Positions 2,417 to 46,759 of a stretch of DNA of 64,000 bases are shown here, one piece after another. The notes under the pieces were generated by a model, which had not been told where the DNA came from, searched no databases, and saw nothing but the letters and a program-made list of their open reading frames with translations. Positions within the stretch are counted from its first letter, which is position 1. Every line of letters starts with the position of its first letter. Source of the DNA: Aurantimonas coralicida DSM 14790 (lineage in GTDB: Bacteria > Pseudomonadota > Alphaproteobacteria > Rhizobiales > Rhizobiaceae); assembly GCF_000421645.1 (NCBI RefSeq), contig NZ_ATXK01000001.1:868001-932000 (forward strand). The letters are read 5' to 3'. A program made the position numbers and the translations under genes.

Positions 2417-4471
2417 ATGACCTACGCAATCACGGCCGAGCGCGGCAGGCCCGCCGCGCTCGGCGCGACGCTCGACGGCGACGGCGTCCATTTCGCCGTC
2501 CACTCCGAGAATGCCGACGCCATCCAGCTCTGCCTCTTCGACCCGACCGGCACGCGGGAAACCGCGCGGCTCGTCCTGCCCGGCGAAAAGGACGGCCGGC
2601 ACTACGGCTTCGTGCCGGGCCTTGCGGCCGGCGCCCGCTACGGCCTTCGTGCGCTTGGCCCCTACCGACCGAAGGACGGCCATCGCTTCGACCCGTCCAA
2701 GCTCCTCGCCGATCCCTATGCGGTGCAACTCGACCGCCCCTTCCTCTATCATCCGGTGCTCGCAGCCCCGCCCGAGCGCCAGCTCGACAGTGCGCCCTAC
2801 ATGCCGCGGGCGCTCGTCACTGCGCTCGATCGCAGCGCCGCGCCCCTGCCCTTTGCCGCCCCCGGCCTGACCTACGAGGTGCTGGTCCGCGCCTATTCCC
2901 AGCGCCATCCGGATGTCCCGGCCGAGATCCGCGGTACCGTCGCCGCCCTCGCCGAACCCGTCTTCCTCGATCACATGGAGAAGCTCGGCGTCGAGACCGT
3001 TGAGCTGATGCCCCTCGCCGCCTGGATCGACGAGGGCCATCTCTCGGCACACGGCCTGACCAATGCCTGGGGCTACAATCCGATCACCCACATGGCGCCC
3101 GACCCGCGGCTTGCGCCGGGCGGCTTTGCCGAGATCCGCCGGGTGGTCGATGCGCTCCATGCGCGCGGCATCAAGGTGCTGCTCGACGTCGTGCTGAACC
3201 ATTCCGGCGAGGGCGACGAGAACGGGCCGACGGTCTGCTATCGCGGCCTCGACAATCTCCTCTACTACCGCCACGCCGAGGACGAGCCGGGCCTGCTCGT
3301 CAACGACACCGGCACCGGCAACACCCTTGCCACCCACCGCGAACCGGTGGCGCGGCTGTGCATCGACGCACTGCGAACCTGGGTCGAGGCGACCGGCCTC
3401 GACGGCTTCCGCTACGATCTCGCCCCGGTGATGGGACGGCTGGACGACGGCTTCTCAGCCGACGCGCCGTTCTTCCGCATGCTCGCCGCCGATCCCGTCC
3501 TGAAGCACCGCATCCATGTCGCCGAACCCTGGGACATCGGTCCCGGCGGCTACCAGGTCGGCCGGTTTCCCAAGCCCTGGTTCGAATGGCAGGACAAGTT
3601 CCGCGACGATGTCCGCCGCTTCTGGCGCGGCGATGCCGGCATGGTCGGGGCGCTGGCGACGCGCCTCGCCGGCTCGGCCGATCTCTACGACCGCGACGGC
3701 CGCCGCCCGTCGAGCGGCGTCAATTTCATCGCCGCCCATGACGGCTTCTCGCTGGCCGATATCGCCGCCTATGCCGAGAAGCACAACGCGGCCAATTGCG
3801 AGGGCAATCGCGACGGCCACAACGACAACCACTCCTGGAACAACGGCGTCGAGGGTGAGACCGACGATCCGGCCATCCTCGACGCGCGCGGCAAGGACAT
3901 CCGCGCCATGCTGGCGACGCTGATGGTCGCGCGCGGCACGCCGATGCTGGTGGCCGGCGACGAATTCGGCCGCAGCCAGGGCGGCAACAACAATGGCTAT
4001 GCCCAGGACAACGAGATCACCTGGCTCGACTGGGCGCGGGCCGACACGGATCTCGCCGCCTTCGTCGCCCGGCTGTCGCAACTGCGCCGTGCCCATCCGG
4101 CCCTCAACGCCGACCGCTTCCTCACCGGCCGCCCGGTCGAGGGCGGCGACGTCGAGGACGTCGTCTGGCTGCGCGAGGATGGCGCCCCCATGGAGCCCGG
4201 CGACTGGTCCGATCCGGAAAGGCGCTTCCTCGGCATGTCGGTCTATGCGCCGCGCGGCGAAGACGACATCGAGAGCGAGCGGGCGGTGATCTATCTCAAT
4301 GCCGGCGACGCCGACATCGCGGTCACGCTGCCGCCGCCGCGCCCCGACCACGCCTATTGCCTGCATCTCCAGTCGGACTGGCCGCAGCTCGAACCCCGGC
4401 GCATCGACGCGGCGGACGGGCTCATCGTCCAGTCCCGTTCGGTGTTCGTCATCCTCGAGGAGCGGCTCTGA
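2417..4471 (+). CDS. glgX: Glycogen debranching enzyme GlgX (isoamylase type)
   Basis: Hydrolyses alpha-1,6 branches of phosphorylase-limit glycogen. The protein is 684 residues from the ATG at 2417, which gives the expected N-terminus (MTYAITAERGRPAALG) of a CBM48 domain. The GH13 core follows: DVVLNHSGEG, then DGFRYDLA with nucleophile Asp ~334, AEPWDIG with acid/base Glu ~370, and FIAAHDGFSLAD. The frame stays open upstream into pgm, but the extra residues are low-complexity shadow of pgm, so 2417 is preferred. Third gene of the glgA-pgm-glgX run. There is a 122-nt gap before mutL. Confidence 0.95.
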   Translation: MTYAITAERGRPAALGATLDGDGVHFAVHSENADAIQLCLFDPTGTRETARLVLPGEKDGRHYGFVPGLAAGARYGLRALGPYRPKDGHRFDPSKLLADPYAVQLDRPFLYHPVLAAPPERQLDSAPYMPRALVTALDRSAAPLPFAAPGLTYEVLVRAYSQRHPDVPAEIRGTVAALAEPVFLDHMEKLGVETVELMPLAAWIDEGHLSAHGLTNAWGYNPITHMAPDPRLAPGGFAEIRRVVDALHARGIKVLLDVVLNHSGEGDENGPTVCYRGLDNLLYYRHAEDEPGLLVNDTGTGNTLATHREPVARLCIDALRTWVEATGLDGFRYDLAPVMGRLDDGFSADAPFFRMLAADPVLKHRIHVAEPWDIGPGGYQVGRFPKPWFEWQDKFRDDVRRFWRGDAGMVGALATRLAGSADLYDRDGRRPSSGVNFIAAHDGFSLADIAAYAEKHNAANCEGNRDGHNDNHSWNNGVEGETDDPAILDARGKDIRAMLATLMVARGTPMLVAGDEFGRSQGGNNNGYAQDNEITWLDWARADTDLAAFVARLSQLRRAHPALNADRFLTGRPVEGGDVEDVVWLREDGAPMEPGDWSDPERRFLGMSVYAPRGEDDIESERAVIYLNAGDADIAVTLPPPRPDHAYCLHLQSDWPQLEPRRIDAADGLIVQSRSVFVILEERL

Positions 4472-42734: not shown

Positions 42735-42957
42735 TTGGCATGGGTCCTCGGGTCAAGCCCGAGGATGACGACCTTGTTGGAGGTCTTCGCTACACTTCAG
42801 CGGCTGTGACCTTTGCAGGGGCTGAGGACCTTTCGGTGCCACCGGTTTCGGCGCGTGCACAGACGGTGGCGATTGGCAGCAAAGCTCAAATCTCGGCGTC
42901 ATCCTCGGGCTTGACCCGAGGACCCATGCCTCGCCATCTCAGCTTCCGCTCCGGTGA
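42735..42957. repeat. 223-bp repeat element, copy 1 (34-bp terminal inverted repeats)
   Basis: Direct copy of the element at 43352-43574, same length with no indels and about 20 mismatches. The left arm (42737-42770) and right arm (42897-42930) are perfect 34-bp inverted repeats. Each arm is itself nearly palindromic (CCTCGGG-TCAAG-CCCGAGG). A shared 27-nt tail (42931-42957) follows the right arm. The 126-nt interior has no plausible reading frame. It resembles a MITE or REP-like palindromic unit. The rest of the gap 42554-42734 shows nothing recognisable. Confidence 0.93.
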
Positions 42958-42986
42958 AAACCACCAACGCACCCCCGCGCAACGCC

Positions 42987-43274
42987 TCACCACCCCATGC
43001 CGCGATAGAGTTCGTTCCACTCGGGGTTCATCGCCTCGATCAGGTCGATCTTCCATTGCCGCCGCCAGCGCTTGAGGGATTTCTCCCGCTGGATCGCGCT
43101 GCCGATGTCGACATGGTCCTCGTACCAGACCAGCCGCGTCACCCCATGAGCCTTCACGAAGCCTCGGGTCAGGCCGCTCTTGTGCTCATACACCCGCCGC
43201 GACAGGTCCGACGTGACTCCGATATAGAGCGTGCCGTTCTTCTGCGACGCCATGATGTAGACGGTGCCGGCCAT
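42987..43274 (-). CDS. GIY-YIG single-domain nuclease
   Basis: A 95-residue member of the small stand-alone GIY-YIG family. The motif is VYIMASQKNGTLYIGVTSD (Y6, Y17-I-G19), with the catalytic Arg likely R26/R27 in LSRRVYEH and the metal-binding Glu ~64 in QREKSLKRW. The family's usual end NPEWNELY follows. No accessory domain or signal. It lies exactly between two direct copies of a 223-bp palindromic repeat (29 nt from copy 1, 77 nt from copy 2), with no clear Shine-Dalgarno. Related small proteins are widespread in Hyphomicrobiales and their function is unsettled. Confidence 0.9.
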   Translation of the reverse strand: MAGTVYIMASQKNGTLYIGVTSDLSRRVYEHKSGLTRGFVKAHGVTRLVWYEDHVDIGSAIQREKSLKRWRRQWKIDLIEAMNPEWNELYRGMGW

Positions 43275-43351
43275 GGGGTGGAGCGTCGATGGTCACAGCG
43301 GCGGCGTCAAGCGGGTGAGGGTTCTGAGGCGTATGTGGCGGCGGAACCGGC

Positions 43352-43574
43352 TTGGCATGGGTCCTCGGGTCAAGCCCGAGGATGACGACCTTGTTGGAGG
43401 TTTTTGCTAGGCTTCAGCGGCTGTGACCTTTGCAGCGGCTGCGGGCCTTTTGATGCCACCGGTTCTGGCGACTACACAGACGGTGGCGGTTGGCGGCATC
43501 GCTAAAATCTCGGCGTCATCCTCGGGCTTGACCCGAGGACCCATGCCTCGCCATCTCAACTTCCGCTCCGGTGA
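43352..43574. repeat. 223-bp repeat element, copy 2 (34-bp terminal inverted repeats)
   Basis: Second direct copy. The arms lie at 43354-43387 and 43514-43547 and are base-for-base identical to those of copy 1, whereas most of the ~20 differences fall in the 126-nt interior. The downstream part of the gap (43575-43665) contains only a weak GCGTTAG/CTAACGC pair around 43583-43638 and no gene. Confidence 0.93.
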
Positions 43575-45012: not shown

Positions 45013-45876
45013 ATGGCGATACCGATATCCGCCCGGCGCGCACTCGTCGGCCTGCTGGCGATCCTGGCATGCCCCGCGGCGAGCGAGGCGCAGGAGCGAT
45101 ACCGCAGCTTGCCGCCGGTCGAGATCGCGCCCGATCTGGCCGACCGCTGGCTACTGCAACTGTCGCCCGGTGACGGCGTCGCCCGCAGCTATCAGCGGGC
45201 CGCCGCGTCGGGTGTCGTCCTCGGCGGCCGCCGCGGCGCTGCGGCGCCCTCGGCCGGCGCCCGCGTCGTCGTGCGTCCGGGCTCCGCGCAGCAGCGCGTC
45301 CTCGGCCAGGCGCCCGGCGTGCGGGGCGGCTATCTGCCCGGAACGCGCAGCGCCGCACCGGTGACCGGACGCCAGCAGGCCGCGCTGGCGACCCGCAATC
45401 TTCCGGCTCCGAACGCCATCGACCCGCAATTCCTGCCCCAGACCGTGCCGTACCGCGGCAAGGAGGCGCCCGGCACCATCGTCGTCGATACCAGGGCGAA
45501 GTTCCTCTACCATGTCGGCCGCGACGGCACGGCGCGCCGCTACGGCGTCGGTGTCGGCAAGCCCGGCTTCGGCTGGAAGGGCCGGCATCCGATCACCCGC
45601 AAGGCCGAATGGCCGAGCTGGACGCCGCCCAAGGCGATGATCGCCCGCGAACGCAAGAAGGGGCGGATCCTGCCGGCCCACATGAAGGGTGGCGAAGCCA
45701 ACCCGCTGGGCGCCCGCGCGCTCTATCTCGGCTCCACACTCTACCGGATCCACGGCACCAACCAGCCCTGGACCATCGGCCGCGCCGTGTCCTCGGGCTG
45801 CATCCGCATGCGCAACCAGGACGTGATGGATCTCTACGAACAGGTGAAGGTCGGAACGAGGGTCGTTGTGCTCTAA
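45013..45876 (+). CDS. L,D-transpeptidase (YkuD domain), first of a tandem pair
   Basis: A 287-residue periplasmic enzyme that forms 3-3 peptidoglycan cross-links or attaches proteins to the wall. Signal peptide ARRALVGLLAILACPAASEAQ. An Ala/Arg-rich linker runs to ~150, and the YkuD domain starts at PGTIVVDTRAKFLYHV. The active site is IHGTNQPWTIGRAVSSGCIRM, with catalytic Cys in SSGCIRM (~268) and the His in HGT. It is followed after 148 nt by a close paralogue. Confidence 0.93.
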   Translation: MAIPISARRALVGLLAILACPAASEAQERYRSLPPVEIAPDLADRWLLQLSPGDGVARSYQRAAASGVVLGGRRGAAAPSAGARVVVRPGSAQQRVLGQAPGVRGGYLPGTRSAAPVTGRQQAALATRNLPAPNAIDPQFLPQTVPYRGKEAPGTIVVDTRAKFLYHVGRDGTARRYGVGVGKPGFGWKGRHPITRKAEWPSWTPPKAMIARERKKGRILPAHMKGGEANPLGARALYLGSTLYRIHGTNQPWTIGRAVSSGCIRMRNQDVMDLYEQVKVGTRVVVL

Positions 45877-46024
45877 CGGCAACAGCCCCGACTTTCCTCA
45901 ACGGAATGCGGAACTCGATGCGACCAACGCGGCGAGAATGCGTTCAAACCATGGCACAATGACGACAACGAGGCGCGGGACACGGTGGGCTTTGCTCCGC
46001 CCCGCCAAACGAGAGGAGCCTCCC

Positions 46025-46759
46025 ATGCAGAACTGGACACGATGGGCCGGAGCCGGCCTGACGGCGATCATGGCCCTGGCGGTGACCGGACAGGCCAGCG
46101 CCGAAGACGTGCGCCGCTACGACCACGCGACCAACAAGTGGGTGACGGTCAGCGCCGAGCGCGTTGCCGCCCGCACGCAGCACCGGGCCCTCGCCCAGCG
46201 CGGCCCGGCGGCCCAGTATCACCGCCGGCAGGTGCGCATCGAGACGCGCGAGAAGCCGGGCACCATCATCGTCGATTCCCAGCGCAAATATCTCTACTTC
46301 GTCGAGGGCAACGGCATGGCGACCCGCTACGGCGTCGGCGTCGGCCGCGAAGGCTTCGGCTGGTCGGGCCGGATGAGCGTCGGCCGCAAGGCCGAGTGGC
46401 CGGGCTGGACGCCGCCGCCGTCGATGATCAAGCGCGAGCGCGCCAAGGGCCGCATTCTGCCGGCCCACATGAAGGGTGGCCCGGCCAACCCGCTGGGTGC
46501 ACGCGCGATGTATCTGTATCGCGGCGGTCGCGATTCGCTGTTCCGGATCCACGGCACCAACCAGCCCTGGACCATCGGCCAGAACATGTCCTCGGGCTGC
46601 ATCCGCATGATGAACCAGGACGTCGAGCACCTGTATGAGCGCGTGCCGAACGGCACCAAGGTCATCGTCATCGGCCCCAGCGGCCAGGGCCCGAAGAACG
46701 TCTATACCGAAGTCGGCGTCGTGCGCGAAAACGTCATCGCCTCGATCTTCGGCGGCTGA
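46025..46759 (+). CDS. L,D-transpeptidase (YkuD domain), second of a tandem pair
   Basis: A 244-residue paralogue of the preceding gene with the same domain. ATG 46025 has GAGGAG 6 nt upstream and a signal peptide (RWAGAGLTAIMALAVTGQASA). The catalytic stretch IHGTNQPWTIGQNMSSGCIRMMN is almost identical to its neighbour. The blocks KAEWPxWTPPxxMIxRERxKGRILPAHMKGG are also shared, which points to a tandem duplication. The linker is much shorter. It ends in a terminator before glcF. Confidence 0.94.
   Translation: MQNWTRWAGAGLTAIMALAVTGQASAEDVRRYDHATNKWVTVSAERVAARTQHRALAQRGPAAQYHRRQVRIETREKPGTIIVDSQRKYLYFVEGNGMATRYGVGVGREGFGWSGRMSVGRKAEWPGWTPPPSMIKRERAKGRILPAHMKGGPANPLGARAMYLYRGGRDSLFRIHGTNQPWTIGQNMSSGCIRMMNQDVEHLYERVPNGTKVIVIGPSGQGPKNVYTEVGVVRENVIASIFGG

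Follow-up and report, generated by a model that had tools for sequence, protein, structure and literature searches.

A small GIY-YIG nuclease gene framed by CGTC-tagged REPs in Aurantimonas coralicida: a candidate enzyme for a REP super-family

Two large super-families of REPs figure in the survey of Di Nocera, De Gregorio and Rocco (2013, PMC3733652), and the CGTC-tagged REPs are one of them. They consist of a CGTC or TGTC head, an 8–9 bp stem starting with AT, a loop of 4–5 nt and a CCA tail, and occur mostly as head-to-head dimers. Azospirillum lipoferum and Sinorhizobium meliloti are named among their bearers, and their Neisseria form is dRS3. In the words of that survey, these elements "seem lacking a dedicated transposase" (Di Nocera et al. 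2013, PMC3733652). The GTAG REPs, for their part, are acted upon by RAYT, a tyrosine transposase of the HUH type, in the system known as REP/RAYT (REPtron, REPIN).

The window (the whole stretch of DNA that was analysed, 64,000 nucleotides of Aurantimonas coralicida DSM 14790, contig NZ_ATXK01000001.1) contains a locus in which a preliminary description, made from the sequence alone, had recognized a 95-residue GIY-YIG gene framed at 29 and 77 nt by two direct 223-bp copies of a palindromic repeat. Comparison of the copies confirmed this layout: they are in direct orientation, are 91% identical, and resemble each other further leftward, up to 42720 and 43337 (89% identity over 238 nt), while the 95-codon ORF lies between them at the distances just given. 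The 34-bp palindromic arms it had also reported hold for the first copy (34 nt, 100% complementary); those of the second copy measure 39 nt and are 95% complementary, the spacing being 126 nt in both. What had to be corrected is the nature of the repeat. The 223-bp copy was rejected as the unit, its full form having been found at the window locus only; the unit is a 30-nt hairpin, CGTC-ATCCTCGGG-CTTGA-CCCGAGGAC-CCA, which makes up each arm. Each 223-bp copy is a head-to-head pair of such hairpins, so that the locus comprises four REPs (Table 1), and the two that adjoin the gene are mutually inverted, with their CGTC heads facing away from it. Elsewhere in the window, positions 45013–46759 hold two adjacent ORFs with similar C-terminal halves which, as read from the ORF translations, resemble paired L,D-transpeptidases.

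Table 1. Features of the GIY-YIG/REP locus, in window coordinates
Feature	Position	Strand	Basis
95-aa GIY-YIG nuclease gene	42987..43274	-	Pfam PF01541, invariant residues, dN/dS
Head-to-head REP pair, downstream of gene (first 223-bp copy)	42735..42957	.	repeat comparison
Head-to-head REP pair, upstream of gene (second 223-bp copy)	43352..43574	.	repeat comparison
REP 1, distal	42741..42770	-	hairpin motif
REP 2, gene-proximal (downstream), CCA tail toward gene	42897..42926	+	hairpin motif
REP 3, gene-proximal (upstream), CCA tail toward gene	43358..43387	-	hairpin motif
REP 4, distal	43514..43543	+	hairpin motif

The window hairpin fits the definition of a CGTC-tagged REP, with an unpaired CGTC head, an AT-initial stem, a loop and a CCA tail; the one departure is an A–C mismatch at the first stem position of the window copies (ATCC..GGAC). 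Its abundance in the genome is far beyond chance: a 29-nt arm pattern with up to three mismatches has 36 copies in 4.6 Mb, versus none for the reversed pattern, and these copies fall into about 16 clusters (manual count). Among 18 neighbouring pairs less than 500 nt apart, a count that covers 33 of the 36 copies, 9 are head-to-head, 5 tail-to-tail and 4 tandem; one of the tail-to-tail pairs spans the GIY-YIG gene, and gene-less tail-to-tail pairs are also present in the same genome. The window REPs meet the description "dispersed, mostly head-to-head dimers" and share head, stem, loop, tail and dimer arrangement with the elements of the 2013 survey (PMC3733652). In that survey, however, no transposase is described in association with them and GIY is never mentioned, whereas the window unit pairs its REPs with a GIY-YIG gene.

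The likeness to REP/RAYT lies in inverted REPs that enclose a nuclease gene, in dispersed non-autonomous REPs and in the presence of several enzyme–REP pairs in a single genome. The difference lies in the enzyme, a GIY-YIG protein whose fold is unrelated to that of RAYT. Since the framed gene is GIY-YIG and not HUH, and since the tag is CGTC and not GTAG, the window locus fails the criteria for RAYT membership, although the unit would work like REP/RAYT.

The 95-aa product matches the Pfam GIY-YIG family (PF01541, 1.6e-15). An alignment of 40 sequences has Y6, Y17, G19, R27, H31, E64, K68, N83 and W86 among its invariant columns; these include the conserved Tyr, Tyr, Arg, Glu and Asn of the GIY-YIG superfamily (Y6, Y17, R27, E64 and N83), which we take to be the catalytic residues. 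Comparison with the copy of a genome of the same genus (G606) yields a dN/dS of 0.0115/0.309 = 0.037; the gene is under purifying selection. The solved folds nearest to the predicted model (pLDDT 91) are those of the small UPF0213 GIY-YIG proteins (1zg2, 1ywl) and of Slx1, the best match being 1zg2 (E 4e-5) and Slx1 a weaker one (E 0.012); sequence identity is low, however (28% to 1zg2), and to our knowledge neither UPF0213 nor Slx1 proteins have been linked to REPs. Slx1 processes branched DNA (structure entry titles), so the proximity of the predicted folds makes structure-specific cutting of REP hairpins plausible, an inference that rests on the model. Searches of NCBIfam and PHROGs gave weak matches, mostly to homing-endonuclease models. 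The GIY-YIG core is indeed common to the window protein and to homing endonucleases of the I-TevI type, but the window gene is framed by hairpin repeats, no intron or intein is seen around it, and a protein of 95 residues can hardly accommodate a distinct DNA-binding domain. The window genome contains one close copy of the gene and a second GIY-YIG ORF that is 36% identical, and the protein is annotated "GIY-YIG nuclease family protein".

The association between REPs and this gene family was assessed in four sets of loci, no locus being common to any two of them. Sample A contains the best 80 of 553 GIY-YIG loci from genome contigs, with flanks of up to 10 kb; these are the nearest relatives and are not independent. 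Sample B contains the best match per genome for 75 Pseudomonadota genomes outside the family, out of 93 non-family genomes with a match (manual count). Two paralog sets of 20 loci each were hand-picked. Note that some records are MAGs, possibly mis-binned, and that the REP finders are stem-agnostic but rely on fixed tags, so that variants are missed; the second version permits long loops. With this long-loop finder, sample A displays 143 REPs in the 24.0 kb lying within 150 nt of the gene (6.0/kb) versus 35 in the 738.6 kb lying 4–10 kb away (0.05/kb), and sample B 127 in 22.4 kb (5.7/kb) versus 37 in the 279.6 kb lying 2–4 kb away (0.13/kb). The corresponding counts obtained over the same lengths with the first, stem-agnostic finder are 130 versus 40 and 93 versus 33. 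On reversed sequences, the long-loop finder returned 1 REP in 1329 kb, 0 in 590 kb and 0 in 123 kb.

At the level of loci, a CGTC REP lies within 200 nt of the gene in 71/80 (sample A), 49/75 (sample B), 17/20 (first paralogs) and 6/20 (further paralogs) cases, versus 42/905 control ORFs taken from both samples and from the first paralog set. A tag-free test, which requires an inverted repeat between the 150-nt flanks with a score exceeding 13 (the 99th percentile among control ORFs), was met by 49/80, 53/75, 19/20 and 14/20 loci, respectively. Either a CGTC REP or an inverted-repeat flank is present at 75/80, 69/75, 20/20 and 16/20 loci, a total of 180/195; the remaining 15 of 195 have neither, and many finder-negative loci show variant-tag hairpins by eye. 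Six examples, chosen out of 37 records, can be named: REPs lie near the gene in Sinorhizobium meliloti pSymB, A. lipoferum, Aeromonas caviae and Neisseria gonorrhoeae (dRS3-type arrays), and variant-tag or long-loop REPs are seen by eye in Novosphingobium aromaticivorans and Planktothrix agardhii, both of them finder-negative. In the P. agardhii plasmid (L390), the GIY-YIG gene sits between an MmeI-type restriction-modification gene and the DISARM gene drmA. In the sampled loci, the association of CGTC REPs with the window-type GIY-YIG family is very strong, as an association only. The preliminary description had considered two passive MITEs as an alternative, and had proposed that a repeat scattered without association to GIY-YIG genes would refute its reading: the scattering is real, the lack of association is not, and a chance pair of MITEs is rejected on the near-gene REP density and the control-ORF counts.

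The REPs that frame the gene are mostly oriented and their stems match. Within 150 nt of the gene, heads point outward versus inward in a ratio of 99:44 in sample A and 92:35 in sample B, and the expected orientation is found on both sides at 35/80, 32/75 and 13/20 loci (samples A, B and first paralogs); REPs nearest to the gene are not always heads-outward. Of the 76 loci with a stem on both sides of the gene, 52 have the same 8-nt stem upstream and downstream, versus 6.9% between loci, and none of 2000 permutations reached the observed mean. Between different loci of one genome, 8 of 30 ordered pairs have a common stem, 6 of which come from three near-identical copies in genome G288. In genome G358, paralogs L258, L259 and L260 have different REPs, L258 and L259 each matching on both sides. 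Within one family, stem similarity and protein similarity correlate weakly (r = 0.175, a value reached in 49 and 32 of 1000 shuffles).

The framing does not extend to the other GIY-YIG genes examined: at 18 loci (17 places), no REP was found within about 1.5 kb of the domain in either direction, and a REP link to any GIY-YIG protein is rejected on this ground. The 17 places comprise 13 ORFs of 670–850 aa, which by their size we take to be UvrC, the 36% paralog (retrieved twice) and three others; the 3' gene ends of the long (670–850 aa) ORFs were outside the examined stretch. Among 121 Rhizobiaceae genomes, 56 are gene-positive (E up to 1e-10) and 65 gene-negative, there being mostly one or two matches per genome. 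At least one REP of the window stem type is found in 44/56 of the former versus 16/65 of the latter (Mann–Whitney p = 6e-9, not corrected for phylogeny), and in each of the four sampled pairs of congeneric genomes of which just one has the gene, REPs are more numerous in that genome (36 v 11, 53 v 14, 25 v 6 and 8 v 0). Strict dependence of REPs on the gene is nevertheless unsupported. No REP of the window stem type is found in 12 of the 56 gene-positive genomes (other stems were not counted), and 10 of the 65 gene-negative ones hold five or more, up to 80 (G004) and 59 (G097), the sole GIY-YIG match of these two being in an ORF of 691 or 692 aa. Eight of these ten have a single GIY-YIG match, in an ORF of 686–850 aa that we take to be UvrC, and the other two also have another small GIY-YIG match. 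At least 18 of the REP copies of G097 equal the consensus pattern. The gene is also found in records labelled as many phyla, many of them MAGs.

These data bear on the possibility of a passive co-location, in which REPs and a small gene both gather in permissive intergenic gaps without any functional tie. In its favour, REPs are also found in intergenic DNA distant from the gene (outside ORFs of 100 aa or more), at 0.33/kb (68 in 204.7 kb), and some REP-rich genomes lack the gene. Against it, the near-gene density is well above this intergenic value in both samples, orientation is biased and stems match, other examined GIY-YIG genes lack REPs, and the A. lipoferum unit described below has REPs on both sides. 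We consider passive co-location very unlikely.

Comparisons of orthologous sites show that the gene and its REPs are present or absent together and that gene-deleted derivatives keeping both ends exist. In the genus of the window, the genome with the most similar Tag protein (G606) carries the gene beside tag, flanked by REPs at either end. An IS110-type element interrupts the distal REP of G606, and hisS was not seen in the examined stretch. The preliminary description would have been refuted by relatives holding the nuclease gene at this site without repeats, which is not what G606 displays, its hisS side remaining unseen. At the split REP (L344, from about 3064), an IS110-type transposase ORF (3233–3667, PF01548) follows directly, a situation that might reflect the use of REPs as IS targets. 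The tag–hisS gap contains a gene-less tail-to-tail REP pair in G604 and neither gene nor REPs in G001; in the remaining same-genus loci hisS lies beyond the examined stretch. In A. lipoferum, the unit occupies the gap between sufB and sufC; a tail-to-tail REP pair flanks the gene on either side, the heads of the gene-nearest REPs pointing toward the gene and those of the outermost ones outward. The sufB–sufC gap is devoid of gene and REPs in the five congeners examined (A. ramasamyi, A. oryzae, A. sp. B510, A. argentinense and A. thermophilum; 23 Azospirillum records matched). In Shinella sp. PSBB067 (L396), the same gap holds a REP and another GIY-YIG gene, with 50% identity to the query; this gene apparently arrived there independently of the A. 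lipoferum unit.

In genus g73, the GIY-YIG/REP unit is multi-copy. Two sites, L249 and L244, were compared with 29 relatives' loci each, those kept out of 97 and 93 relatives with a match. At the L249 site, the gene is absent from all 29 loci and a gene-less REP pair is present in 5, of which the finder detected both ends in 3 and one end in 2 (the other end being seen by eye); of the remainder, 1 shows part of a REP end, the right flank is missing from 1 and 22 are finder-negative, two of which (L289 and L296) contain apparent decayed solo palindromes. At the L244 site, the gene is present in 4 loci (split over two frames in 1); one locus (L327) has lost about residues 6–64 of the gene and retains both REPs; 6 loci contain, by eye, a solo palindrome that can be read as a fusion of the left head with the right REP; the right flank is missing from 2, and 16 are finder-negative. 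These solo palindromes (L314, L319, L322, L333, L338 and L340) are nearly perfect and occur where relatives have the whole unit; they can be read as deletions between direct stem copies, and an excision scar is a possibility. Finally, a 212-nt gene-less element (L301) retains both subterminal regions of the gene unit. Since derivatives such as L301 and L327 keep the ends of the unit, gene units and gene-less derivatives have common ends, like autonomous and non-autonomous elements. With respect to the criteria for a transposable element (mobility and defined ends), polymorphic sites and common outer ends are seen without a resolved duplication: no target-site duplication could be resolved, the intergenic regions compared being too diverged, and no insertion between strains was resolved among the compared loci.

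Two further explanations can be weighed against these sites. In a homing-type element, the nuclease would cut gene-less tail-to-tail REP pairs and repair would copy the gene in, the REPs being targets and not mobilized ends. Gene-less tail-to-tail pairs do exist (in the G604 tag–hisS gap and in the window's own genome) and the protein is weakly similar to homing endonuclease models, but the sufB–sufC gap is REP-free in the five congeners examined, and L301 and L327 resemble deletions of the gene unit and not unoccupied targets, which leaves this scenario unlikely. Alternatively, a host-beneficial nuclease might trim or resolve REP cruciforms, for example at stalled forks, without mobilizing them. 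Purifying selection, the Slx1-like fold, the low number of matches per genome and the solo palindromes resembling deletion products speak for such a control or disposal role; the patchy presence of the gene (56/121 genomes), its scatter over records assigned to many phyla (MAGs in many cases) and the framing of the gene by its own REPs, which this role leaves unexplained, suggest a mobile unit instead. We also regard it as improbable.

On balance, we lean toward reading the window locus as a REP and GIY-YIG nuclease unit, the REPs being the cognate ends and substrates of the enzyme; cleavage and transposition are inferred, and there are no binding or cleavage data. The preliminary description had proposed a composite unit of the REP/RAYT kind, which the family-wide association supports, binding, nicking and mobilization remaining inferences. 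In the model we favour, the enzyme would recognize the REP hairpin, as a single strand or a cruciform, through its conserved feet (GTCAT/ATCCA) and its variable stem, and would nick it, the Slx1-like fold suggesting structure-specific cutting; nicking would lead to excision of the framed segment and its copying to new intergenic sites, and gene-less REP pairs would be served in trans by the same enzyme. The GIY-YIG enzyme would thus have for CGTC REPs the role that RAYT has for GTAG REPs. We propose that movement is rare and that the gene is therefore usually low-copy and maintained by purifying selection, whereas dead REPs remain in the genome. A bolder reading would be that of a minimal transposon with a GIY-YIG protein of about 95 aa as its sole dedicated protein, without HUH, DDE or recombinase enzyme, which would recognize hairpin ends, mobilize itself and gene-less REP derivatives, and have given rise, in many phyla, to the CGTC REP super-family with its Neisseria form, dRS3; taken jointly, these claims go a little further than we are ready to endorse.

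No GIY-YIG/REP link appears in the titles or abstract openings of the literature searched (preprints and most subscription journals were outside its scope), and the examined passages of PMC6006769, PMC12306157 and PMC5896051, works that cite the 2013 survey, do not mention GIY. In PMC9465073, RayT and a GIY-YIG gene are merely co-listed in one table. What we propose as new is a dedicated-enzyme candidate for the CGTC REPs, which were left without one in the 2013 survey: the window-type GIY-YIG family is put forward as a good candidate for that vacant role, as the counterpart of RAYT with an unrelated fold. A named, small candidate enzyme makes the CGTC-REP question directly testable. If the proposal is true, an unrelated nuclease fold would have independently evolved the RAYT role, and the annotation "GIY-YIG nuclease family protein" would gain a biological role.
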